From Flavobacterium flabelliforme (lineage in GTDB: Bacteria; Bacteroidota; Bacteroidia; Flavobacteriales; Flavobacteriaceae), in NCBI RefSeq assembly GCF_017948675.1, contig NZ_JAGFBU010000001.1, forward strand, positions 186,001 to 250,000: a DNA stretch of 64,000 bases, read 5' to 3'. The number at the start of each line of letters is the position of its first letter. Position 1 is the first letter of the stretch. The position numbers and the translations under genes are program-made. Under the pieces are notes generated by a model. The model did not search any database and had not been told where the DNA came from. It saw only the letters and a program-made list of their open reading frames with translations. Shown here piece after piece: positions 4,417 to 50,214 of the stretch.

Positions 4417-6147
4417 ATGAATAAAACTGTAAATATAAACTTAGGCGGAATGTTCTTCCATATAGATGAAGATGCATACCAAAAACTAACTCGTTATTTT
4501 GACGCTATAAAACGTTCTTTATCAAACTCATCTGGTCGTGATGAAATAATAAAAGATATTGAAATGCGCGTTTCAGAATTATTACATGAAAAACAAATTA
4601 GTGATAAACATGTTATTGTTTTAAAAGATGTAGATGAAGTTATTGCTGTAATGGGACAACCCGAAGATTACATTATAGAAGAGGAAAATACAAGCAATAC
4701 TTCCTTTAATAATTCGGATACTAGAGGAACTAAAAAACTGTATCGTGACAAAGAAAAAGGAATGATTGGTGGCGTTGCTTCTGGTTTAGGATATTATTTT
4801 GGAATAGATGCCGTATGGATCAGAGTGGTACTTATTCTATTAATATTTGCTGGATTTGGAACTGGTATTTTAGCTTATATCATTCTCTGGATTGTAACTC
4901 CTGAGGCAATAACAACTTCAGAAAAACTAGAAATGACTGGAGAACCAGTAACAATTTCAAACATAGAGAAAAAAGTTAGAGAAGAGTTTGAGAATGTTTC
5001 AGACAAATTCAAAAACGCAGATTATGATAAATATGGCAATCAAATTAAGAGTGGTGCTGGTAAATTAGGAAATTCATTAAGTGATTTCATAATGACTCTT
5101 TTTAATGTGTTTGCAAAATTTCTAGGAATAATTTTAATCCTATCTGGTTTAGCAATGATTATCGTTTTTTTAGTTGGCGCCTTAACTTTAGGTTCTACTA
5201 ATTTTGGAAACTTTCCTTTTCACCAATTTATTGAGTCAGGAAATTTTACAGATTATCCGATTTGGGTTTTTGGAGCGTTAGTTTTTATAGCAATAGCAAT
5301 TCCAAATTTCTTCTTGATACTTTTAGGATTTAAATTAGTGTCACCTAACATAAAATCAATAGGAAGCATTGCTAAATATACTTTATTAGCACTTTGGATA
5401 ATTGCAATGGCGTTGTTAATTTCTATTGGAGTTAAACAAGCAAGCGCATTTGCTGTAGATGGTAGAGTCGTAAAAAAAGAGATCTTAAATCTAAAACCTA
5501 CTGATACTCTTTTTATAAAGTTTACGCACAGTGATTATTTCGCAAAAAACATTAATGATCGCAATGACTTTATAATTTCACAGGACTCAACAGGAACAGA
5601 TGTAATTTATTCGAATGAAGTTTCTTTAAAAATAGAAAAAACGAATGAAAAACTACCTTATATTCAGATTGAGAAAGAAGCAAAAGGAAAATCATTATCT
5701 GAAGCCAAGAAAAGAGCTGAACAAATTAAATACAGCTATAAAATAGAAGGAAGTCATTTAATTTTAGACAACTATTTGTTAACAGATTTAAAAAACAAAT
5801 ACAGAGATCAAGAAATTGAAATCACTTTATATTTACCAAAAGGAACTTTATTAAAACCGGATGAATCTTTGCGAAACTATGACCGTACCGATGCAGATTA
5901 CTTTTTATGGAATCCAGAATCTAATACCAATGTTTACAAAGTTGAGGAGAACAAAGTAAGATGTTTAAATTGTGATACTGAAGAAGACTATAATAGTGAT
6001 TACGATTCTGAAAATGATACTAAGCAAACCTCAATAACTATCAATGAAAATGGGGTATCAGTCAAAGGAGATACTATAAAAAATTCAAAAAAAGTGTTTA
6101 AAGAATTAAAAATAAATAAAGACGGTATAATAATTAAAACTAACTAG
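4417..6147 (+). CDS. PspC domain membrane protein
   Basis: A 576-residue protein starting MNKTVNINLGGMFFHID at 4417; the frame extends upstream only through PadR coding sequence. Residues about 1-85 form a cytoplasmic domain (DEIIKDIEMRVSELL). A PspC domain follows (KLYRDKEKGMIGGVASGLGY, about 107-170) with a transmembrane hairpin. A linker and several more hydrophobic segments come next (about 225-350). A C-terminal soluble region of about 220 residues is rich in charged residues. PspC proteins belong to phage-shock-type envelope stress systems, but the long C-terminal part is characteristic of Bacteroidota versions. It is followed after 2 bp by the GIN lipoprotein gene. Confidence 0.88.
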   Translation: MNKTVNINLGGMFFHIDEDAYQKLTRYFDAIKRSLSNSSGRDEIIKDIEMRVSELLHEKQISDKHVIVLKDVDEVIAVMGQPEDYIIEEENTSNTSFNNSDTRGTKKLYRDKEKGMIGGVASGLGYYFGIDAVWIRVVLILLIFAGFGTGILAYIILWIVTPEAITTSEKLEMTGEPVTISNIEKKVREEFENVSDKFKNADYDKYGNQIKSGAGKLGNSLSDFIMTLFNVFAKFLGIILILSGLAMIIVFLVGALTLGSTNFGNFPFHQFIESGNFTDYPIWVFGALVFIAIAIPNFFLILLGFKLVSPNIKSIGSIAKYTLLALWIIAMALLISIGVKQASAFAVDGRVVKKEILNLKPTDTLFIKFTHSDYFAKNINDRNDFIISQDSTGTDVIYSNEVSLKIEKTNEKLPYIQIEKEAKGKSLSEAKKRAEQIKYSYKIEGSHLILDNYLLTDLKNKYRDQEIEITLYLPKGTLLKPDESLRNYDRTDADYFLWNPESNTNVYKVEENKVRCLNCDTEEDYNSDYDSENDTKQTSITINENGVSVKGDTIKNSKKVFKELKINKDGIIIKTN

Positions 6148-6149
6148 TC

Positions 6150-6890
6150 ATGCTAAAAATTTTAACATTAATCACAAAATTTATTTTAGTAACCTTAACC
6201 GCACTGTTTTTTGCATCTTGTAATTATTCTATAAATCTCAAGTCAATTAAAGGCAGCGGAAATATTACTACTGAAAAAAGAAATGTAGAAAGTGATTTTA
6301 CAAGTATTGAAGTAAACAATTCTATTGATGTTGTAATCGAACAATCGAATACTACAGAAATAATGGTTGAAGCTGATGATAATTTGCAAAAACACATCAC
6401 TACAAAAGTAGAGAATGGCACTCTTATTATTTCATGCGATAAAAATTTTCAAATCGATACGAAAACAAAAAAAGTAAGTGTTAAAATGCCGATTATTGAT
6501 GAATTAGAAGCCACTAGTAATTCAAAAATCACCAGCAAAAACACTTTAAAAGGAGAAAATATTCGTTTAAATACTTCTAGTGCTGCACGTATTAACATCA
6601 ATATTGAATCGGATAACATTAGTTGTGATACCAGTAGCGGAAGCATCATTATACTTAATGGCAAATCATTAAAATTAGAAGCAAATGCATCTAGTGGAAG
6701 TGAAATAATTGCGGTAAAGATGCTTGCTAATGAAGTTATTGCAGATGTATCTAGTGGAGCAAGGATTAGTGTTCATCCAATTGTTAAGTTAAATGCTGAA
6801 GCTTCTAGCGGAGGAAGTATTACATATGACATTCAGCCTAAATCGATATCTAAAAATACAAGTTCTGGCGGAAGTATCAATCAAGAATAA
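6150..6890 (+). CDS. GIN-domain (DUF2807) lipoprotein
   Basis: A 246-residue protein with a lipoprotein signal peptide: a hydrophobic stretch then LFFASC, so Cys is about residue 25. The mature part opens with the head motif IKGSGNITTEKRNVESDFTSIEVNNSIDVVIEQ, typical of GIN / head-GIN (DUF2807) proteins. It then runs into repeated SSG/SSGS turns (TSSAARI, TSSGSI, ASSGSE, VSSGAR, ASSGGS, TSSGGS) that mark coils of a right-handed beta-helix. It is the last gene of the operon and ends before a strong terminator. It is probably anchored in an envelope membrane, with a binding or scaffold role that is not known. Confidence 0.88.
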   Translation: MLKILTLITKFILVTLTALFFASCNYSINLKSIKGSGNITTEKRNVESDFTSIEVNNSIDVVIEQSNTTEIMVEADDNLQKHITTKVENGTLIISCDKNFQIDTKTKKVSVKMPIIDELEATSNSKITSKNTLKGENIRLNTSSAARININIESDNISCDTSSGSIIILNGKSLKLEANASSGSEIIAVKMLANEVIADVSSGARISVHPIVKLNAEASSGGSITYDIQPKSISKNTSSGGSINQE

Positions 6891-6910
6891 AAAAAAGCAA
6901 GTAAATATAA

Positions 6911-6942
6911 AAAAATCATCCATCAAAAAATGGATGATTTTT
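6911..6942 (+). terminator. Rho-independent terminator after GIN lipoprotein
   Basis: A 12-bp perfect stem (AAAAATCATCCA / TGGATGATTTTT) with an 8-base loop and a following T run ends the DUF4870-PadR-PspC-GIN operon. The next gene's -7 box (TATATTTG, 6944-6951) starts within the T run. Confidence 0.85.
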
Positions 6943-6943
6943 T

Positions 6944-6951
6944 TATATTTG
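6944..6951 (+). promoter_or_regulatory. Promoter -7 element for the second GIN gene
   Basis: TATATTTG matches TAnnTTTG and lies 23 bp before the ATG at 6975, directly on the tail of the preceding terminator. This shows the second GIN gene is transcribed separately. Confidence 0.5.
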
Positions 6952-6974
6952 TAAATACATTAATACAAATAATC

Positions 6975-7808
6975 ATGAAAAAATACCTTACGCTACTCCT
7001 ACTCTTTTTAGCAACAACGATCTTGTTTGCTCAAAAAAAAGAAAAGATAAAAGGATCTAAAATAGTAACCATAGAACGTAGAGAAGTTGGTAAATTTTCA
7101 GCTTTGCTGATTGAAGATAATCTTGAGGTATATTTAGAAAGAGGAGAAAAAGCAGAATTAAAAATAGAAGCTGACGAAAATTTACAGGACATTATTTCTT
7201 TTGAATTGCATGACAGCACCTTGCGTATTTTTACTACTAAGAATATCACTAATTACAAAAAAATAATAGTAAAAGTTACTTATACTGATGAATTAAATCT
7301 AATCACTTCAAAAGATGATACTACCATCAACTCGATTCAGGAACTTTTATTAAATTCAATTACGATAAAAGCACAAGATGCGTCAAAATTATTTTTAAAT
7401 GCCAATACCAAAGATTTTTTACTTCAAGCAGGAGACAAAACAAAAACAGAACTGAATTTAAAATCAGAAAACGCAACTGTTGAACTAAATAAAAATGCTA
7501 CATTAAAAGCATTGATCAACACCAGTTTTTTAAAGGTGGATCAGTATCAAAAAACAACTGCAACTATTGAAGGAACTGCTCTAAACACGGCTATACGATT
7601 AGACAATAATGCAACCTTTGTTGGAAATAAGTTAACTACTAAAAAAGGAGACATTACAGCAGAAAGCTATTCTTCCTGCAGTTTATTTGTAGAAAAAGAA
7701 GTGATGATTGAGGCAACAAATAAATCTGAAATTCAACTCTTGGGAAATCCAAAAATAGAAATACGCAAGTTTTTAGATGAAGCTAAACTTCTTAAAAAAT
7801 TGAAGTAA
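6975..7808 (+). CDS. Second GIN-domain (DUF2807) exported protein
   Basis: A 277-residue protein. The start at 6975 gives a clean signal peptide (MKKYLTLLLLFLATTILFAQ); the longer frame to 6930 overlaps the terminator and promoter. The region KGSKIVTIERREVGKFSALLIEDNLEVYLERGEKAELKIEADENLQ resembles the head of the preceding GIN lipoprotein (IEVNNSIDVVIEQ...EADDNLQ), so the two look like diverged paralogues. No lipobox Cys is present, so it is probably free in the periplasm or surface-bound. The SSG-turn repeats of its neighbour are largely missing. Confidence 0.78.
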   Translation: MKKYLTLLLLFLATTILFAQKKEKIKGSKIVTIERREVGKFSALLIEDNLEVYLERGEKAELKIEADENLQDIISFELHDSTLRIFTTKNITNYKKIIVKVTYTDELNLITSKDDTTINSIQELLLNSITIKAQDASKLFLNANTKDFLLQAGDKTKTELNLKSENATVELNKNATLKALINTSFLKVDQYQKTTATIEGTALNTAIRLDNNATFVGNKLTTKKGDITAESYSSCSLFVEKEVMIEATNKSEIQLLGNPKIEIRKFLDEAKLLKKLK

Positions 7809-7862
7809 AAACATCTATTTTATAATTAAGAAAAATTCTTTAATACAGTATATCAAGTATAA

Positions 7863-42579: not shown

Positions 42580-43941
42580 TTATCTCATTCCAGGCATTCC
42601 TCCAGGCATTCCGCCTTTCATTCCGCCCATCATTTTCATTAAATTTTTTCCTCCTGGTCCCTGCATCATTTTCATCATCTTGCTCATTTGATCAAATTGT
42701 TTCATCAATTGATTGACTTGTTCGATTTTCGTTCCGGAACCTTTAGCAATTCTTGCTTTTCTTTTTACATCAATCAAAGCGGGTTTGCTTCTTTCAATTG
42801 GAGTCATCGAGTGAATAATGGCTTCTATATGTTTGAATGCATCATCTTCGATCTCTACATCTTTCATGGCTTTTGAAGCACCAGGTATCATTCCGACCAA
42901 GTCTTTCATATTACCCATTTTCTTTACTTGCTGAATTTGAGATAGGAAATCATCAAAACCAAATTCATTTTTAGCAATTTTCTTTTGAATCTTTCTGGCT
43001 TCGTCTTCGTCAAATTGTTCTTGCGCTCTTTCTACCAAAGACACAACGTCACCCATCCCTAAAATTCTTTCAGCCATACGAATAGGATAGAATACATCTA
43101 TAGCATCCATCTTTTCCCCTGTACCGACGAATTTAATTGGTTTATTTACAACTGTTTTTATAGAAATAGCTGCCCCACCACGCGTATCACCATCAAGTTT
43201 CGTTAAAATAACACCATCAAAATTCAATCGATCATTGAACGTTTTTGCTGTATTTACGGCATCTTGACCTGTCATTGCATCTACAACAAATAAGGTTTCT
43301 TGAGGCTGAATCGCTTTATGAACACGTTCTATCTCGTTCATCATTTCCTCATCAACCGCCAAACGACCTGCTGTATCGACAATAACCACATTAAATCCAT
43401 TTGCTTTCGCGTGTTTGATTGCATTTTGGGCAATTTCAACAGGATTTTTATTTTCAGGCTCAGAGTATACCTCAACACCTATTGAATCTCCAACAACATA
43501 TAATTGCTGAATCGCTGCTGGACGATAAATATCACAAGCAACCAATAGTGGTTTTTTATTCTTTTTTGTAAGAAGATAATTCGCTAGTTTTCCAGAAAAA
43601 GTAGTTTTTCCTGATCCTTGCAAACCAGACATTAAAATAACGGTTGGATTTCCAGAAAGATTAATTCCTGCAACATCACCACCCATTAATTCTGTCAGTT
43701 CATCTTTAACTAACTTTACTAACAATTGCCCTGGCTGAAGCGTTGTTAATACATCCTGCCCGATTGCTTTTTCTTTTACTTTAGTGGTAAAATCTTTCGC
43801 AATTTTAAAGTTAACATCCGCATCAAGCAAAGCTCTACGAACTTCTTTTAAAGTTTCGGCTACATTTACTTCGGTGATTTTTCCGTGACCTTTAAGTATA
43901 TGAAAGGCTTTATCTAGTTTATCGCTTAAATTATCGAACAT
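42580..43941 (-). CDS. ffh: Signal recognition particle protein
   Basis: A 453-residue SRP54 GTPase. The N domain (1-90) leads to the G domain with GLQGSGKTTFSGKLA (G1), DTAGRLA (G3), and TKLDGDTRGG (G4). The C-terminal M domain is Met-rich (MMKMMQGPGGKNLMKMMGG...). It directs nascent membrane proteins to FtsY and SecYEG. The 4.5S RNA gene is not seen in the window. A -7 box at 43964-43971 drives it. Confidence 0.97.
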   Translation of the reverse strand: MFDNLSDKLDKAFHILKGHGKITEVNVAETLKEVRRALLDADVNFKIAKDFTTKVKEKAIGQDVLTTLQPGQLLVKLVKDELTELMGGDVAGINLSGNPTVILMSGLQGSGKTTFSGKLANYLLTKKNKKPLLVACDIYRPAAIQQLYVVGDSIGVEVYSEPENKNPVEIAQNAIKHAKANGFNVVIVDTAGRLAVDEEMMNEIERVHKAIQPQETLFVVDAMTGQDAVNTAKTFNDRLNFDGVILTKLDGDTRGGAAISIKTVVNKPIKFVGTGEKMDAIDVFYPIRMAERILGMGDVVSLVERAQEQFDEDEARKIQKKIAKNEFGFDDFLSQIQQVKKMGNMKDLVGMIPGASKAMKDVEIEDDAFKHIEAIIHSMTPIERSKPALIDVKRKARIAKGSGTKIEQVNQLMKQFDQMSKMMKMMQGPGGKNLMKMMGGMKGGMPGGMPGMR

Positions 43942-43963
43942 GGTTTATTTTTTTATTGAAATG

Positions 43964-43971
43964 CAAAGATA
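43964..43971 (-). promoter_or_regulatory. ffh promoter -7 element
   Basis: Minus-strand TATCTTTG matches TAnnTTTG and lies 22 bp before the ATG. Confidence 0.55.
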
Positions 43972-44384
43972 AACTAATTAGATAATTAGGCAATTAGATA
44001 CAATAGATAATTGAGACTATTTTATGGAATAGAAAAAAACAGAAAAGAGTGTTTTATTTTAGCTAAACTGTGTTTAACATGAATACATTAAAAACAAAAA
44101 AGAGGCTAGATAAATCTAACCTCCTTTTCCCAAAATACAAACAAGTAACTCATAAACAGTATTGACATTAACATTTTAGCTTATAAAAGCCAAAATCTAA
44201 TTGGTTACAAAAAAAGAAATATCAAGACAATATTTTGAACCTAATTATAATACTAGTTTAAGGAGTGTGTTTAATATGCTGAATTACATCAAATTATCTC
44301 AATAATTATTAGTAGGAATAGCTCAAAATAAGTGGCTAAACTTTATAAATCAAAATAAATGGATAGATTCAAAAAAAAAAAAAA
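43972..44384. other. Gene-free stretch between ffh and hmuY
   Basis: About 410 bases, AT-rich. It contains a hairpin at 44102-44122 (GAGGCTAGA-TAAA-TCTAACCTC, one mismatch) followed on the minus strand by a T run, a possible terminator for the HmuY operon. A run of 14 A residues sits at 44371-44384, touching the hmuY stop. No credible ORF. Confidence 0.5.
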
Positions 44385-45008
44385 TTAAAAAGTTGTTGTA
44401 CTATTGGGCTGATAAGCAAAATTGAAGGTGTAATATCTACCTGTAGAAGTAAGATCTGGTGCTGCAGGTGCATCTTTGTAATAACTTAGGATTTCAAATT
44501 TTGCGTATTTCCCATCATGTGTTTTTATAACAAATATCTTTCCCGCTTTAGACGATATAAGATGGGTATTAGAATTGTAATCGTACCACGCATTATCTCC
44601 AGACTTTGGAAAAGCATAAATCGCAGCTGCATCTTGTTTAAAGGTTGACGCTAAGGGAATCGATTTTATAGTTGAAAATGCACCAGAAACAATGCTTACA
44701 GCAGCATTTCCCGTTCTGTTTGGCTCATCGACAATACCAATTTTAGCTCCTCCGTTTACAATAATTACAGTACCACGAAAAGCTACATCCCAATTATCAC
44801 TGGTTACAATTTTATTTTCAGAAAAACTGAATTTTGTGAATGCACCGCCTTCAGGTTGTCCTTGTCCCCCTGTGGCTGGAGCCGGAAGATTAGTGAATTT
44901 TTGAGTTATAACTGCTGGAACTAGCTCCTCCTTTTTATCATCATTACTACAAGATGTTGTGAAAATTACTAGTGCTAAAAGCGAAAGTTTTAAAAAATTT
45001 GTTCTCAT
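44385..45008 (-). CDS. HmuY-like heme-binding lipoprotein
   Basis: A 207-residue lipoprotein: signal peptide then TTSC (Cys20). The mature part holds the HmuY pattern GAFTKFSFSENKIVTSDNWDVAFRGTVIIVNGG and the end GRYYTFNFAYQP. HmuY proteins of Porphyromonas capture heme at the cell surface and give it to a TonB-dependent receptor. Family support comes from sequence pattern; a heme-axial-ligand His pair is not evident, so the ligand could differ. It follows the receptor gene by 26 bp on the same strand. Confidence 0.82.
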   Translation of the reverse strand: MRTNFLKLSLLALVIFTTSCSNDDKKEELVPAVITQKFTNLPAPATGGQGQPEGGAFTKFSFSENKIVTSDNWDVAFRGTVIIVNGGAKIGIVDEPNRTGNAAVSIVSGAFSTIKSIPLASTFKQDAAAIYAFPKSGDNAWYDYNSNTHLISSKAGKIFVIKTHDGKYAKFEILSYYKDAPAAPDLTSTGRYYTFNFAYQPNSTTTF

Positions 45009-45034
45009 TGTAAAAGTGTTTAAATAAATATTAA

Positions 45035-47095
45035 TTAAAAATTGAATTGAATTCGTGCAAAAAGTTGTCTTCCAGAAAGATTAGGAATTTGATTGGGCTC
45101 TTTATAATCAAGTAAATTATTAGCACCGATTTGAAAAAGTAATGTATCCGAAATGTATTTTGAAGCCGATAAATTGGTAATAAAATAATCATCTACAAAC
45201 GTGTCGTATTTATCCAGTATTTGATTACCATTGCTATCAAACATTCCGTATTTACTTCTGTAAAAAATACGCAAATTGATATCTGTTTTTATAGTTGAAA
45301 TAGTGTATAATAGTTTGAGATTGGCAGTATGTTTCGAGCGATTGTAAAATCCGAAATAATCTGATTTATCAATTTTTATCGTTTGTAGTTCGTTGTTTCT
45401 TATGTATTGATAGTCTTGAAAGTGTTCCGAAATCGATTTGTCTTTTGCTGTTAGATATTGATAACCAAAAGAAACCATTACATCTTTAGTGAAGTTATAA
45501 TTCGAATTCAGTTCTAATCCATACGTAAAAACAGCATTAGTATTAAAATAACTAAAAATACTCTGACCATTATTTTTTTGAGCAACTGCCTTAGTATCAA
45601 TTAAATTATGAATAGAATTATAAAATGTGTTTACCTCTAATTTAAATTTTTCCTTTTTGTAAAAAGTTCCAAAATTACAATTCACAGCACTTTCTGCTTG
45701 TAATGGTTCATCAAAATTAATCCCTGATTCTTTTTTCAATATTTGATCTTGCATCTCATTTAATCGCGCTTCAGCTACATTATATCCCAAAACGGTATAT
45801 CCTACTGATGGATTTGTAAAATCGAAATACAATTGGCGAAAATCTGGTGCCTTGTATCCGTATCCAACAGATGTTTTTAAAGAAAAATTAGTGTTAATTT
45901 TATAATTCAACGCTAATTTTGGACTTAACTGTGAGGCGTATTCACTGTGATTATCGTACCTAAATCCCGCTAGAATATTCCATTTTTGGTTTGGGTTGTA
46001 ATCATACTGCACAAAAACATATTGAGAATTAAATTTGACAATAGCATTAAAATAAGTTCTATCTAAAGTTTCCTGATTCATTCCTATTCCTGCTGTTAAC
46101 TTATTTTTATTAATAGAGAAAGTAGTTCTTATTTCAGGTCTAAAAAGCCATTGATTGTAAAAGGTTTGATCGTAAAGCACTTTACTTTCATCCTCTAAGA
46201 AGGAATTGTTTTTATAATTCGTTGCATATAATTCATACTCAAAATACAACTTTGAATTCAACTTGTGTTCTACCTTAACTTGAGAATTCCATTCCTTTTC
46301 TTCAGCATCACCTTTGTAATATTCAGTTTCAATGAGGGCGACATTATTCATATTCTGATTGTAAAAGCGATTGCTTATAATTAGCTTAACTTTTTTAGAA
46401 AAATCATAATACAATTTGGGATTAATGGTGTAATTATAAAATTTTTCAACATTTTTTAAAGGTGTTGCTTTATCCAAATCAAATCCGTCAGAAGAATAAA
46501 AGTTAGCGAATACATTAGCAGAAAACCTGTTCTTTTTCCAGAGCAGATTAGCATTCAAGTCATTGGTATTGAAAGTTGCATATCGATAGGAAAAATTACC
46601 TGACAGCATATCTTTTTTAGGTTTTTTTGTAATTACATTGATCACACCGCCCATTGCTTCTGAGCCATATAAAGCAGAAGATGCCCCTTTTACAATCTCA
46701 ATTCTATCTATATTCCCTACTGATATTCTTGATAAATCTAAAACTCCTGCATTTCTACCAACAATTGGAACGCCATCAATTAGTACTAACGTGTAGGCTG
46801 CGTCTAAACCTTGAATCTGAATCCCCTCAAAACCACTTTCATCAGGAATTAAAATAATACCTGTTTGCTCGCTTAAAATTTCATTTAATCGAGTAACTCC
46901 TGTTTTCTCAATTTCTTTGGCAGTTATTATACTTATTGGCAAGGGTAAGGAAGAAAGTACTCTTTCAGTTCTTGTCGCTGTAACAACCTTAACTTCTAAT
47001 AATTCCTTAACAACTAAACTGTCTTTTTGCACTTGTTGCGCAAAGGAAAATTGACAAAAAAGAAGAGTGATATAAAGAGTATTTTTAAATTTCAT
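45035..47095 (-). CDS. TonB-dependent receptor, probable HmuR-like heme/iron importer
   Basis: A 686-residue outer-membrane receptor. It has a signal peptide (1-19), a TonB-box-like VKVVTATRTERVLSSLPLPISIITA, a plug domain (about 40-150; IQGLDAAYTLVLIDGVPIVGRNAG, RIEIVKGASSALYGSEAMGGVINVITKKP) and a beta-barrel ending in Phe (ARIQFNF). Pairing with HmuY points to heme or another iron ligand. A -7 box at 47124-47131 and a Fur-like palindrome at 47141-47157 lie upstream. Confidence 0.92.
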   Translation of the reverse strand: MKFKNTLYITLLFCQFSFAQQVQKDSLVVKELLEVKVVTATRTERVLSSLPLPISIITAKEIEKTGVTRLNEILSEQTGIILIPDESGFEGIQIQGLDAAYTLVLIDGVPIVGRNAGVLDLSRISVGNIDRIEIVKGASSALYGSEAMGGVINVITKKPKKDMLSGNFSYRYATFNTNDLNANLLWKKNRFSANVFANFYSSDGFDLDKATPLKNVEKFYNYTINPKLYYDFSKKVKLIISNRFYNQNMNNVALIETEYYKGDAEEKEWNSQVKVEHKLNSKLYFEYELYATNYKNNSFLEDESKVLYDQTFYNQWLFRPEIRTTFSINKNKLTAGIGMNQETLDRTYFNAIVKFNSQYVFVQYDYNPNQKWNILAGFRYDNHSEYASQLSPKLALNYKINTNFSLKTSVGYGYKAPDFRQLYFDFTNPSVGYTVLGYNVAEARLNEMQDQILKKESGINFDEPLQAESAVNCNFGTFYKKEKFKLEVNTFYNSIHNLIDTKAVAQKNNGQSIFSYFNTNAVFTYGLELNSNYNFTKDVMVSFGYQYLTAKDKSISEHFQDYQYIRNNELQTIKIDKSDYFGFYNRSKHTANLKLLYTISTIKTDINLRIFYRSKYGMFDSNGNQILDKYDTFVDDYFITNLSASKYISDTLLFQIGANNLLDYKEPNQIPNLSGRQLFARIQFNF

Positions 47096-47100
47096 TATAT

Positions 47101-47171
47101 TTATTTAGACTTAATAATTTCTACAAAAGTAGTCTTATTTTTATTTATTCTAAATAAACTTTATATATTTG
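47101..47171. promoter_or_regulatory. Divergent promoter region with Fur-like palindrome
   Basis: The region has two -7 boxes: TACTTTTG on the minus strand (47124-47131, receptor) and TATATTTG on the plus strand (47164-47171, DUF6607). Between them is the perfect 7-3-7 inverted repeat TTATTTA-TTC-TAAATAA (47141-47157), plus TTATTTAGA at 47101-47109. The AT-rich palindrome is Fur-box-like in length and symmetry. It could couple both genes to iron. Confidence 0.5.
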
Positions 47172-47200
47172 TCAAAAATTTTTAATTAATAAAATCAACT

Positions 47201-48112
47201 ATGTTAACAAAAAAACTCTATTTATCTGCATTAATGACAGTTACAACTCTAACAAGCTTTAGTCAAGAAATCAAAAAAAGTGAAGATATAAAAGCGATCA
47301 AAGCCATGTGTGGTTGTTATGAAGTAAAATTCAATTTTGCAGAAACATTTCAATATTCAAAAGACAGCGTTAATTACAAACCATCTGCGACAAAACATGA
47401 CAATGGTTTAGAATGGGTAGAATTAGTAGAAGATACACCCAACAAAATAATGCTACAACACTTATTAATTGTGAGTGACGACATGATTATCAAACATTGG
47501 AGACAAGATTGGCTTTATGAAAACACTAATTTGTATCGTTTTGACAAAGACAATACTTGGAAATTTACTAAGTTGAATAAGATGGATGTAAAAGGACAAT
47601 GGACTCAAAAAGTATTTCAAGTTGACGATAGTCCAAGATATGAAGGAACTGCTTCTTGGGTTCATATTGACGGAAAAGACTATTGGAAAAATACAACGGA
47701 TGCTCCATTACCTAGAAGAGAAGATACCAAACGCAAAGATTATAATGTCTTGAAAAGAAGAAACATTCATGAAATCACTAAAACAGGTTGGAACCATGAA
47801 CAAGATAATGATAAAATTTTAAGAACAGAAGCAGGAAAAGATTACCTACTTGCTCAAGAAAAAGGAATGGATATTTATACTAAAGTAGCCGATTCTAAAT
47901 GTATCGCTGCTCAAAATTGGTGGAAAGAAAACAATAATCTATGGAAAAATATAAGAACGAAATGGGATACTGTTTATGATCAAAACAAAGATATAAAATT
48001 GGAAAAAAAAGTAAATAAAAAGACTTTGTATTCCCAACTATTTGACTTAAAACCAAATGCAACAAAAGACCAAACGGATAGCATTATTGACAATTTTGTT
48101 ATCAAAAAATAA
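47201..48112 (+). CDS. DUF6607 family exported protein
   Basis: A 303-residue protein with a signal peptide ending about SFSQ (residue 22). The mature N-terminus IKAMCGCYEVKFNFAETF has a C-G-C pair that stands out. A central DKDNTWKFTKLNKMDVKGQW TQKVFQVDDSPRYEG region, then TGWNHEQDNDKILRTEAGKDYLLAQEKG and SKCIAAQNWWKENN follow. I associate the whole with DUF6607, a family found beside TonB-dependent iron or heme receptors. Function unknown. It is divergent from the receptor gene and shares its promoter region. Confidence 0.82.
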   Translation: MLTKKLYLSALMTVTTLTSFSQEIKKSEDIKAIKAMCGCYEVKFNFAETFQYSKDSVNYKPSATKHDNGLEWVELVEDTPNKIMLQHLLIVSDDMIIKHWRQDWLYENTNLYRFDKDNTWKFTKLNKMDVKGQWTQKVFQVDDSPRYEGTASWVHIDGKDYWKNTTDAPLPRREDTKRKDYNVLKRRNIHEITKTGWNHEQDNDKILRTEAGKDYLLAQEKGMDIYTKVADSKCIAAQNWWKENNNLWKNIRTKWDTVYDQNKDIKLEKKVNKKTLYSQLFDLKPNATKDQTDSIIDNFVIKK

Positions 48113-48133
48113 AATAACAACTGAATATTTTTA

Positions 48134-48174
48134 AAAACAAAAGCCGATAATTTTAAATTATCGGCTTTTGTTTT
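48134..48174. terminator. Bidirectional terminator between DUF6607 and argS
   Basis: The near-perfect 20-bp inverted repeat AAAACAAAAGCCGATAATTT / AAATTATCGGCTTTTGTTTT stands between convergent genes. Confidence 0.85.
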
Positions 48175-48194
48175 ATAATGAATTATAAAATAAA

Positions 48195-49973
48195 CTACAT
48201 TCTTTCTGGAACATTAATTCCTAGTAATTTAAAAGAAGAAGCAATAACATCGGCTACTTTTTTTGATAATTGCACTCGGAATATTTTCTTTTCTAAATCT
48301 TCTTCACCTAAAATAGGAACTGCTTGATAGAACGAATTGTACTCGCGAACTAAGTCATAAGTATAATTTGCCAATAAAGCGGGACTATGATGTTGTGCAG
48401 CATTTTGAATCACTTCTGGAAACAACTCTAATTGCTTTACTAATTCTTTTTCTTTTTCGTGAAGTGTTGTTATTTCTGATTTATTTGTAAAATCGAAATT
48501 AGCCTTACGAATTATAGATTGAATTCTGGCGTAAGTATATTGAATAAACGGTCCTGTATTTCCAGCAAAATCAACAGATTCCTCTGGATTAAATAAGATT
48601 CGTTTTTTAGGATCTACTTTTAAAATGTAATATTTTAAAGCTCCAAGACCAATAGTATTATATAATTTTGCTTTTTCATCAGCATTATACGTATCTAATT
48701 TACCTAAATCTTCAGCAATTTTTTGAGCTGTATCGGTCATTTCTTGCATCAAATCATCGGCATCAACTACCGTTCCTTCACGGCTTTTCATTTTACCCGA
48801 AGGTAAATCTACCATTCCGTAAGACAAATGAAATAAGTTTTTAGACCAATCAAAACCTAATTTTTTCAAGATTAAGAATAACACTTTAAAGTGATAATCT
48901 TGCTCATTTCCAACGGTATAAACCATTCCTCCTACATCAGGAAAATCCTTTACACGCTGAATTGCCGTTCCAATATCTTGCGTCATATATACGGCTGTTC
49001 CGTCAGAACGCAATACAATTTTACGATCTAAACCTTCTTCGGTCAAATCAATCCAAACTGAACCATCTGGATCTTTCTCGAAAACACCTTTATCTAAACC
49101 TATCTGAACGACATCTTTTCCTAATAAATAAGTATTACTTTCATAATAATAAGTATCAAAATCTACTCCTAGATTTTTGTAGCTAATAGCAAAACCATCA
49201 TAAACCCATTGGTTCATCATTTTCCAAAGCGTAATTACGGCTTCATCTCCTGCTTCCCATTTCAAAAGCATTTCTTGTGCTTCTAAAATAATTGGCGCTT
49301 GTTTTTTGGCTTCTTCTTCCGTTTTTCCAGCGCTAATTAATTGCGCTATTTCTTCTTTATAGGCTTTATCAAAAGCAACATAGTAGTTCCCTACTAATTT
49401 ATCTCCTTTAAGACCAGTTGATTCGGGAGTTTGTCCGTTACCGAATTTCTGCCAAGCCAACATGGATTTACAAATATGAATTCCTCTGTCATTAATGACT
49501 TGGGTTTTATATACTTTTTTACCTGAAGCTTTTATAATTTCGGCAACAGAATATCCTAAAAGATTATTACGTACGTGACCTAAATGCAGTGGTTTGTTAG
49601 TATTTGGCGAAGAGTATTCAACCATAACTGCTTTATCCTCTGGATTAGGAGTTACAAAACCAAAGGACTCAATGTTTTTTATTTCATTAAAGAAATTTAA
49701 ATAATAGTCATCCGAAATAACAATATTTAAAAATCCAGAAACCACATTAAAACGACTTACGGCTGCCAAATTTTCGACTAAATATGTTCCAATTTTATTA
49801 CCTAATTCAACTGGATTACTTTTTACCAATTTCAGTAAAGGAAAAATTACCATGGTAATATCTCCTTCAAATTCTTTCCGAGTAGTTTGAAATTCAATTT
49901 TTTCAACAGTAACATCAAATAAAGCATTCACGGCTTTTTCAATAGCGGGCGTAAGAATCTGTGGTAATGTCAT
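48195..49973 (-). CDS. argS: Arginine-tRNA ligase
   Basis: A 592-residue class I synthetase. The start at 49973 (MTLPQILTPAIEKAV) is chosen because the upstream frame to 50084 overlaps the promoter. It has the HIGH variant HLGH (in KPLHLGHVRNNLLG), the KMSK region LPSGKMKSREGTVVDADDL and the C-terminal anticodon domain (NTGPFIQYTYARIQSI...). It charges tRNA-Arg. The -7 box is at 49996-50003, leaving a short leader. Confidence 0.96.
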   Translation of the reverse strand: MTLPQILTPAIEKAVNALFDVTVEKIEFQTTRKEFEGDITMVIFPLLKLVKSNPVELGNKIGTYLVENLAAVSRFNVVSGFLNIVISDDYYLNFFNEIKNIESFGFVTPNPEDKAVMVEYSSPNTNKPLHLGHVRNNLLGYSVAEIIKASGKKVYKTQVINDRGIHICKSMLAWQKFGNGQTPESTGLKGDKLVGNYYVAFDKAYKEEIAQLISAGKTEEEAKKQAPIILEAQEMLLKWEAGDEAVITLWKMMNQWVYDGFAISYKNLGVDFDTYYYESNTYLLGKDVVQIGLDKGVFEKDPDGSVWIDLTEEGLDRKIVLRSDGTAVYMTQDIGTAIQRVKDFPDVGGMVYTVGNEQDYHFKVLFLILKKLGFDWSKNLFHLSYGMVDLPSGKMKSREGTVVDADDLMQEMTDTAQKIAEDLGKLDTYNADEKAKLYNTIGLGALKYYILKVDPKKRILFNPEESVDFAGNTGPFIQYTYARIQSIIRKANFDFTNKSEITTLHEKEKELVKQLELFPEVIQNAAQHHSPALLANYTYDLVREYNSFYQAVPILGEEDLEKKIFRVQLSKKVADVIASSFKLLGINVPERM

Positions 49974-49995
49974 TTTGTGTACTTTTTTAAGGGTG

Positions 49996-50003
49996 CAAAG
50001 ATA
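49996..50003 (-). promoter_or_regulatory. argS promoter -7 element
   Basis: Minus-strand TATCTTTG matches TAnnTTTG and ends 22 bp before the argS ATG; its position also rules out the longer upstream start. Confidence 0.6.
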
Positions 50004-50214
50004 GTGATTCTGCGGGAATTTTAAAATTGAAGAATGAGATAATTTCCTATTCATTATGAGTTGTTTAGTTTTTATTTTCAACAAACAGATTTATTTTTCA
50101 AAAAAAATCTGTAACAAATAATAATTTATGCAGTCTTACTAAGTAACATTAAGTAATTATTTAATGGATTAAAGTTTAAACATCAATCAAATCACAATCA
50201 AATCACAATCAATC

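Follow-up and report, generated by a model that had tools for sequence, protein, structure and literature searches.

The DUF6607 family is the family of RhuH, the haemophore of Riemerella anatipestifer. In Flavobacterium flabelliforme, a member of this family is encoded in what is very probably (about 0.92) a haem-acquisition locus with a RhuH-type haemophore, laid out as rhuH / rhuR-rhuA is in R. anatipestifer. The locus lies in a window of 64,000 nucleotides, the whole stretch of DNA that was analysed, and comprises a gene for a 303-residue DUF6607 protein (47201-48112, + strand) and, on the - strand, genes for a 686-residue TonB-dependent outer membrane receptor (45035-47095) and a 207-residue HmuY-family lipoprotein (44385-45008). 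All three gene positions were verified and, with the Pfam matches, agree with the original prediction, in which an HmuY-like gene and a TonB-dependent receptor are divergent from DUF6607. That prediction took the function of DUF6607 to be unknown, and the copy of the Pfam PF20311 entry used here still reads 'unknown function', but the family has a solved and characterised haemophore (PDB 8XJC; PMC11967795). The reading draws on gene identities, homology to 8XJC, conservation of residues, gene linkage and conservation of an operator, all observed here. What such a locus does has been published for close relatives, and the additions made here are small: how strongly the genes are coupled, the operator, a pair of cysteines, neighbours in fold and the copies in sphingomonads. 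With this, a DUF6607 gene may be annotated as a probable RhuH-type haemophore, and an adjoining receptor as a probable haem receptor.

DUF6607 and the haemophore RhuH

The window protein matches PF20311 with an E value of 1.9e-106, above the cut-off. A phmmer search of solved structures (E 0.001) returned a sole match, 8xjc_A, named 'haemophore', at E 1.5e-90 over residues 17-301, with full-length homology and approximately 50% identity to RhuH. In a profile search of solved structures (E up to 10), 8xjc alone among 97 rows was significant; the major histocompatibility complex chains in the next rows, from E 0.062, were taken as chance matches. Structure prediction had been proposed as a check, and the outcome is favorable: a model of the window protein built with 36 aligned sequences, with a predicted local distance difference test score of 89.4, matches 8xjc with template modelling (TM) scores of 0.83/0.90, a Z score of 35.9 and a root mean square deviation of 2.2 over 272 residues. 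The nearest named relatives are from Flavobacterium species, at 77% identity or less. An NCBIfam scan assigned no family to the DUF6607 protein or the HmuY protein.

RhuH binds haem with a Kd of 3.44e-11 M, and mutation of His96 to Ala decreases haem binding by approximately six orders of magnitude (PMC11967795, 2025). RhuH takes haem from haemoglobin, and so, in vitro, do the proteins of R. columbina, F. columnare and F. soli that are homologous to it; growth of a rhuH mutant is poor when haemoglobin or haemin is the iron source (PMC11967795). Under iron limitation, outer membrane vesicles carry RhuH out of the cell; it is hence a secreted protein, which does not suit the original proposal of DUF6607 as a periplasmic partner (PMC11967795). 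Homologues of RhuH are found mostly in Weeksellaceae and Flavobacteriaceae, and most of the species that bear them come from marine, soil, freshwater and plant sources, with animals represented too (PMC11967795); a haemoglobin scavenger is less expected in the former sources. Searches of the paper collection used here found no paper on DUF6607 by name, and none on RhuH and haemophore beyond PMC11967795.

The phmmer alignment pairs His96 of RhuH, the ligand of the haem iron, with H99 of the window protein, and Arg143, Tyr144, Arg170, Arg183 and Gln198 with R146, Y147, R173, R186 and Q201. The propionate contacts of RhuH were drawn from an AlphaFold3 complex rather than from the crystal (PMC11967795). 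Conservation was assessed with 127 aligned DUF6607 sequences, including that of the window, 121 of which are distinct over residues 30-290. H99, R146, Y147 and R173 are each kept in 121/121 distinct sequences, R186 in 118/121 and Q201 in 120/121. A second histidine, H87, is likewise invariant (121/121).

The original prediction gave weight to a CGC pair at the mature N-terminus of DUF6607. As judged by eye, the Sec signal covers approximately residues 1-22, without a lipobox, and the CGC is at residues 37-39, approximately 15 residues past the likely cleavage site rather than at the terminus. The weight is also unsupported, given that the first cysteine, C37, is missing in 13/121 distinct sequences; RhuH reads AGC where the window protein reads CGC. 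Both C39 and C234 occur in 115/121 sequences and neither in 6/121, and no sequence has just one of them, although the six double losses possibly reflect only a few events. That C39 and C234 are kept or lost together while C37 can be absent fits a C39-C234 disulfide, which is likely, with C37 likely dispensable. The CGC as a metal or lipid site was dropped on the same two observations.

By analogy to RhuH, a mechanism can be proposed. When iron is short, Fur would leave the shared operator (47137-47158), such that both promoters open. The DUF6607 protein would cross by the Sec pathway and then leave the cell, where its barrel would take haem from haem proteins, with the iron bound by H99 and the propionates close to R146, Y147, R173, R186 and Q201. 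The next recipient would be the surface HmuY lipoprotein, the TonB-dependent receptor itself, or both, in an order that we infer, and the receptor would import the haem. Haem binding, extraction from haemoglobin, vesicle export and control by Fur are all carried over to this scheme from the published relatives.

The shared promoter and its candidate operator

The divergent receptor and DUF6607 genes are separated by 105 bp (47096-47200). With a gap of 26 bp between them, the receptor and HmuY genes look like one operon; the DUF6607 gene appears to be a single-gene unit, and the next gene (48195-50084) is convergent. Two -7 boxes had been predicted in the shared promoter, and both are present as an outward pair, TATATTTG for DUF6607 (47164-47171, + strand) and TACTTTTG for the receptor-HmuY operon (47124-47131, - strand). 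Each matches TAnnTTTG, a form of the Bacteroidota -7 consensus. The perfect palindrome predicted between the boxes is also present, but its arms are longer than the 7-3-7 first given: it is an 8-3-8 palindrome, TTTATTTA-TTC-TAAATAAA (47140-47158), that is the sole such match in the window and arose in 0/100 shuffles. It overlaps a Fur-box-like site, ATTTTTATTTATTCTAAAT (47137-47155), that also lies between the boxes, 45 bp before the ATG of DUF6607 and 41 bp before that of the receptor, and agrees with the Riemerella consensus at 16/19 positions (3/19 differ).

The Riemerella Fur box is given as ATTTAGAATTATTCTAAAT in the results of PMC5609570; the abstract prints the general Fur consensus GATAATGATAATCATTATC instead. 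The Fur boxes in that paper are from strain RA-YM, in which the receptor-HmuY pair is called hmuR/hmuY. Ten of the eleven sites listed there, the hmuR/rhuH box among them, were used to build a symmetric score matrix (PMC5609570). With this matrix, 47137-47155 is the top-scoring of all 19-mers in the window, and it is the sole window match to the Riemerella Fur box at three or fewer mismatches. One Fur gene was found in this genome.

The promoter was compared across 71 intergenic regions, those of the window and 70 relatives, with 1420 dinucleotide shuffles as control; gaps of 40 bp or less or of 200 bp or more had been excluded beforehand, removing 4/74 divergent pairs (three of 28 bp and one of 458 bp). 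The + strand box occurs in 69/71 regions, the - strand box in 70/71, and both outward boxes together in 69/71 as against 19/1420 shuffles. A Fur-like site with at most three mismatches is found anywhere in 40/71 regions and in 4/1420 shuffles; at the aligned place, 33/71 regions have at most three mismatches and 65/71 at most five. The exact 8-3-8 palindrome occurs in 10/71 regions, and therefore conservation extends to the underlying site rather than to a perfect palindrome. The best Fur-like 19-mer falls between the boxes in 39/71 regions (2/1420 shuffles), and no more than 39 because, in the failing loci inspected, a second Fur-like stretch near the receptor start ties or wins. If any Fur-like site with up to five mismatches between the boxes is counted, the figure is 57/71, at a threshold loosened after the 39/71 result and without its own shuffle control. 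The operator is conserved, and by its sequence looks like a candidate Fur site. Given that it lies between the boxes, approximately where both -33 elements would fall, one bound repressor could shut both promoters.

A second conserved stretch, approximately ATTNAGTCTTAATAAT, lies between the -7 box of the receptor and its start codon (47096-47124, and the same place in relatives). In 13/71 regions this stretch includes a Fur-like 19-mer at 2-3 mismatches (18/71 were too short there to be scored); in the window its likeness to the Fur box is weak (7 mismatches).

The rhu locus of R. anatipestifer CH-1 also has the haemophore gene divergent from an operon for a receptor and a haem-binding protein (PMC11967795). 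The shared promoter is 122 bp there and 105 bp here, with a Fur box there and a Fur-like sequence here (PMC11967795). Distances from that Fur box to rhuH and rhuR are 25 and 78 bp, as compared to the 45 and 41 bp of the window. Mutation of fur or of the Fur box, and likewise iron limitation, raises the mRNA level of rhuH (PMC11967795). RhuR (HmuR) and RhuA (HmuY) are matched to the window receptor and HmuY protein by position and name only.

Linkage to HmuY and the receptor across genomes

The HmuY-family protein matches PF14064 at E 6e-11 (43.1 bits, with a cut-off of 27) and has, as read by eye from the translation, a lipobox-like ...FTTSC at residue 20. The receptor has a Plug domain (E 2.6e-24) and a barrel domain (E 2.1e-28), both above cut-off. 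This genome has a single DUF6607 match and a single HmuY match. Co-occurrence of the two families had been proposed as a check, and it is borne out at three depths of sampling, with p values from Fisher tests that ignore kinship, where many of the genomes belong to one genus. In the phylum sample of 296 genomes, HmuY is found in 96 genomes and DUF6607 in 25, of which 24 have both (p 3.8e-12), and one of the 25 matches covers profile positions 9-37 only (G327). The family sample of 60 genomes has DUF6607 in 20, HmuY in 26 and both in 18 (p 2.1e-7), with the two genes no more than 5 kb apart in 16/18, as judged by eye. For the 101 genomes of the genus sample the numbers are 35, 45 and 32 (p 1.2e-12). 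DUF6607 occurs in 0/14 well-known control genomes.

Gene order was followed in 80 named loci, the 80 that scored best out of 578 confirmed stretches, and the set therefore leans to near relatives. The receptor and HmuY profiles were iterated from the window proteins and may catch other receptors, and the nearest receptor was counted. A divergent receptor lies within 600 bp of DUF6607 at 74/80 loci, 72 of which have HmuY within 4 kb, and the median gap between DUF6607 and receptor is 105 bp, equal to that of the window. The notion that DUF6607 genes might be scattered without receptor neighbours was dropped on this count. The original suggestion, in which DUF6607 supplies the missing partner of this haem/iron system, was thus right in substance, given the homology to RhuH, the co-occurrence with HmuY and the divergent receptors, although this role had already been published. 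Of the six loci lacking a divergent receptor, L110, L126 and L127 have one on the same strand, L134 has one 5.5 kb away, L111 has none that was found, and L116 is a contig of 3.7 kb. At L097 and L115 a receptor is present and HmuY was not found within the 872 and 118 bases of contig that lie beyond it.

The HmuY partner is either approximately 200 residues, as in the window, or 360-494 residues. In a scan of eight HmuY partners, two HmuY stretches were present in each of three long ones, and three proteins encoded next to such partners have a type IX secretion sorting domain at their end. Long partners are found at L089 (5002-7690, with two HmuY stretches in 6287-7690), L126 (7310-9990) and L114 (5312-7731), where a second gene beside the HmuY partner ends in the sorting domain.

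Two other characterised systems pair a TonB receptor with an HmuY-family haem binder. The hfpR-DoxX-hfpY operon of Flavobacterium psychrophilum, controlled by iron starvation, has a DoxX gene between the receptor and HmuY-like genes, whereas the window has only its 26 bp gap and thus is not of the hfp type (PMC9331221). The hmuYR operon of Porphyromonas gingivalis adds four uncharacterised proteins (PMC9331221, PMC11967795). DUF6607 is named neither for the hfp operon nor among those four proteins in the available part of PMC9331221. The haem ligands, paired His or Met, differ among members of the HmuY family (PMC11967795).

Alternative readings and other gene layouts

Several observations weigh against the haem-acquisition reading. 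The window receptor scores 148.6 bits with the NCBIfam haem model TIGR01785, below its cut-off of 316.85, such that it does not qualify for that subfamily, and 161 bits with the B12 (BtuB) model TIGR01779, also below cut-off; the haem substrate is therefore claimed by context. A search of the genome for haem oxygenase (PF01126) found none. A three-mismatch match to the Fur box is near what chance allows, with 0.50 expected per 64 kb and at least one in 37/100 shuffles, and therefore the argument for the operator is carried by place and conservation. Deletion of rhuH left the virulence of R. anatipestifer in ducklings unchanged (PMC11967795). HmuY occurs without DUF6607 in 72/96 HmuY genomes of the phylum sample, and HmuY systems can therefore do without it. 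Three DUF6607 genomes that lack HmuY also have other layouts. In G196 the row is DUF4397 - receptor - PepSY_TM - DUF6607 (L140 3491-8949). In G004 DUF6607 converges on a receptor - HTTM/VKGC - imelysin row. In G035 no receptor adjoins DUF6607, and a 997-residue frame that is SusC-like by eye lies 2.4 kb away. The G004 row resembles receptor, gamma-carboxylase and imelysin entries that adjoin where PMC5609570 tabulates regulated genes; the text of that paper calls the receptor Fur-regulated. The genus sample holds three further DUF6607 genomes that lack HmuY, G397, G409 and G433, outside the three inspected; G409 has a 210-residue frame (C2:334605-335189) that covers DUF6607 profile positions 83-276 only, in a genome without an HmuY match, and is possibly a decaying copy.

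The receptor scores bear on the idea that the locus serves another TonB substrate, such as cobalamin or a siderophore, with DUF6607 as a bystander. The receptor does score slightly higher with the BtuB model than with the haem model, both under cut-off, but the HmuY partner, the conserved haem-site residues and a published rhu locus of equal layout make this idea very improbable.

The barrel fold raises a different question, that of whether DUF6607 stores or detoxifies haem or another tetrapyrrole in the envelope and is no haemophore proper. A Foldseek search with the DUF6607 model gave nothing below E 0.001 beyond 8xjc. In the structural aligner, the rows after 8xjc are CpcS/CpeS-type bilin lyases (Z 10.6), polyketide spirocyclases (10.6 and 10.4) and nitrobindins (9.0-10.5), with 138-156 barrel residues aligned at 4-8% identity. 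The guidance of the aligner is that a best Z of 7-8 is typical for models without a clear match, and therefore these neighbours are only moderately above background. The nitrobindins and bilin lyases share the barrel fold of DUF6607 residues ~23-231 and no more than that fold, and are smaller proteins. The model thus puts the barrel of the haemophore close to tetrapyrrole binders of a calycin-like kind, where a shared fold proves neither descent nor function. The structure of RhuH has been stressed as distinct from other haemophores, and the available part of that paper names no nitrobindin, lipocalin or calycin (PMC11967795). A storage or detoxification role would fit this resemblance, the unaltered duckling virulence and the many HmuY-receptor pairs without DUF6607. 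It is nonetheless improbable, given that four family members strip haemoglobin in vitro and that the rhuH mutant grows poorly on haemoglobin (PMC11967795), and given that control by iron starvation suits scavenging and not detoxification.

A stricter form of the haem-acquisition reading is a relay of two haemophores, in which DUF6607 extracts haem and hands it to HmuY, HmuY alone docks to the receptor, and DUF6607 thus depends on HmuY. DUF6607 genomes nearly always have HmuY and HmuY is often alone, as a relay would predict. RhuA is unable to take haem from haemoglobin and RhuH is able to do so (PMC11967795), and RhuA is reported to act through RhuR, passing haem to RhuB (PMC10986502). However, the sphingomonad and G196 loci have DUF6607 with a receptor and no HmuY, and therefore some lineages must be able to deliver haem to the receptor directly. 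On balance, the relay is given a little less than an even chance.

The sphingomonad copies are among five plasmid records with DUF6607. Those from Fibrella and Bernardetia have the divergent arrangement, with DUF6607 on one side and the receptor and HmuY on the other; in Bernardetia these two are separated by a DoxX gene. In Sphingomonas parapaucimobilis, DUF6607 lies 3' of a same-strand receptor annotated 'TonB-dependent hemoglobin/transferrin/lactoferrin family receptor', and one Novosphingobium has a plug-and-barrel receptor and then DUF6607 in the same order; the other Novosphingobium has no receptor match in its 14.7 kb. HmuY was not found in the three sphingomonad stretches. In the sphingomonad plasmid loci L135 and L136, the receptor and same-strand DUF6607 span 4689-7849 and 4707-7852, respectively. 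The string 'Sphingomon' appears nowhere in the available part of PMC11967795, and a literature search on Sphingomonas and hemophore did not name RhuH among the matches listed. These sphingomonad copies point to a family that extends past the order from which RhuH was described.

A broader proposal, for which the odds are somewhat unfavorable, is that RhuH-type proteins form a wider class of haemophores than the published Flavobacteriales set. The class would be defined by a calycin-like barrel with a C39-C234 disulfide, and would act as a module that joins HmuR and HmuY in Bacteroidota, a lone haemoglobin-type receptor in sphingomonads and a PepSY_TM receptor operon elsewhere. In most Bacteroidota it would be the first stage of an obligate relay from RhuH to HmuY.

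Two minor features flank the locus. A terminator-like hairpin 3' of the HmuY gene (44096-44129, - strand) is a weak candidate, with 2 such sites in 43900-48300 as compared to a shuffle mean of 1.2. Between DUF6607 and its convergent neighbour, an inverted repeat (48139-48170) that is absent from the list of the terminator scan was noted by eye as a possible two-way terminator.

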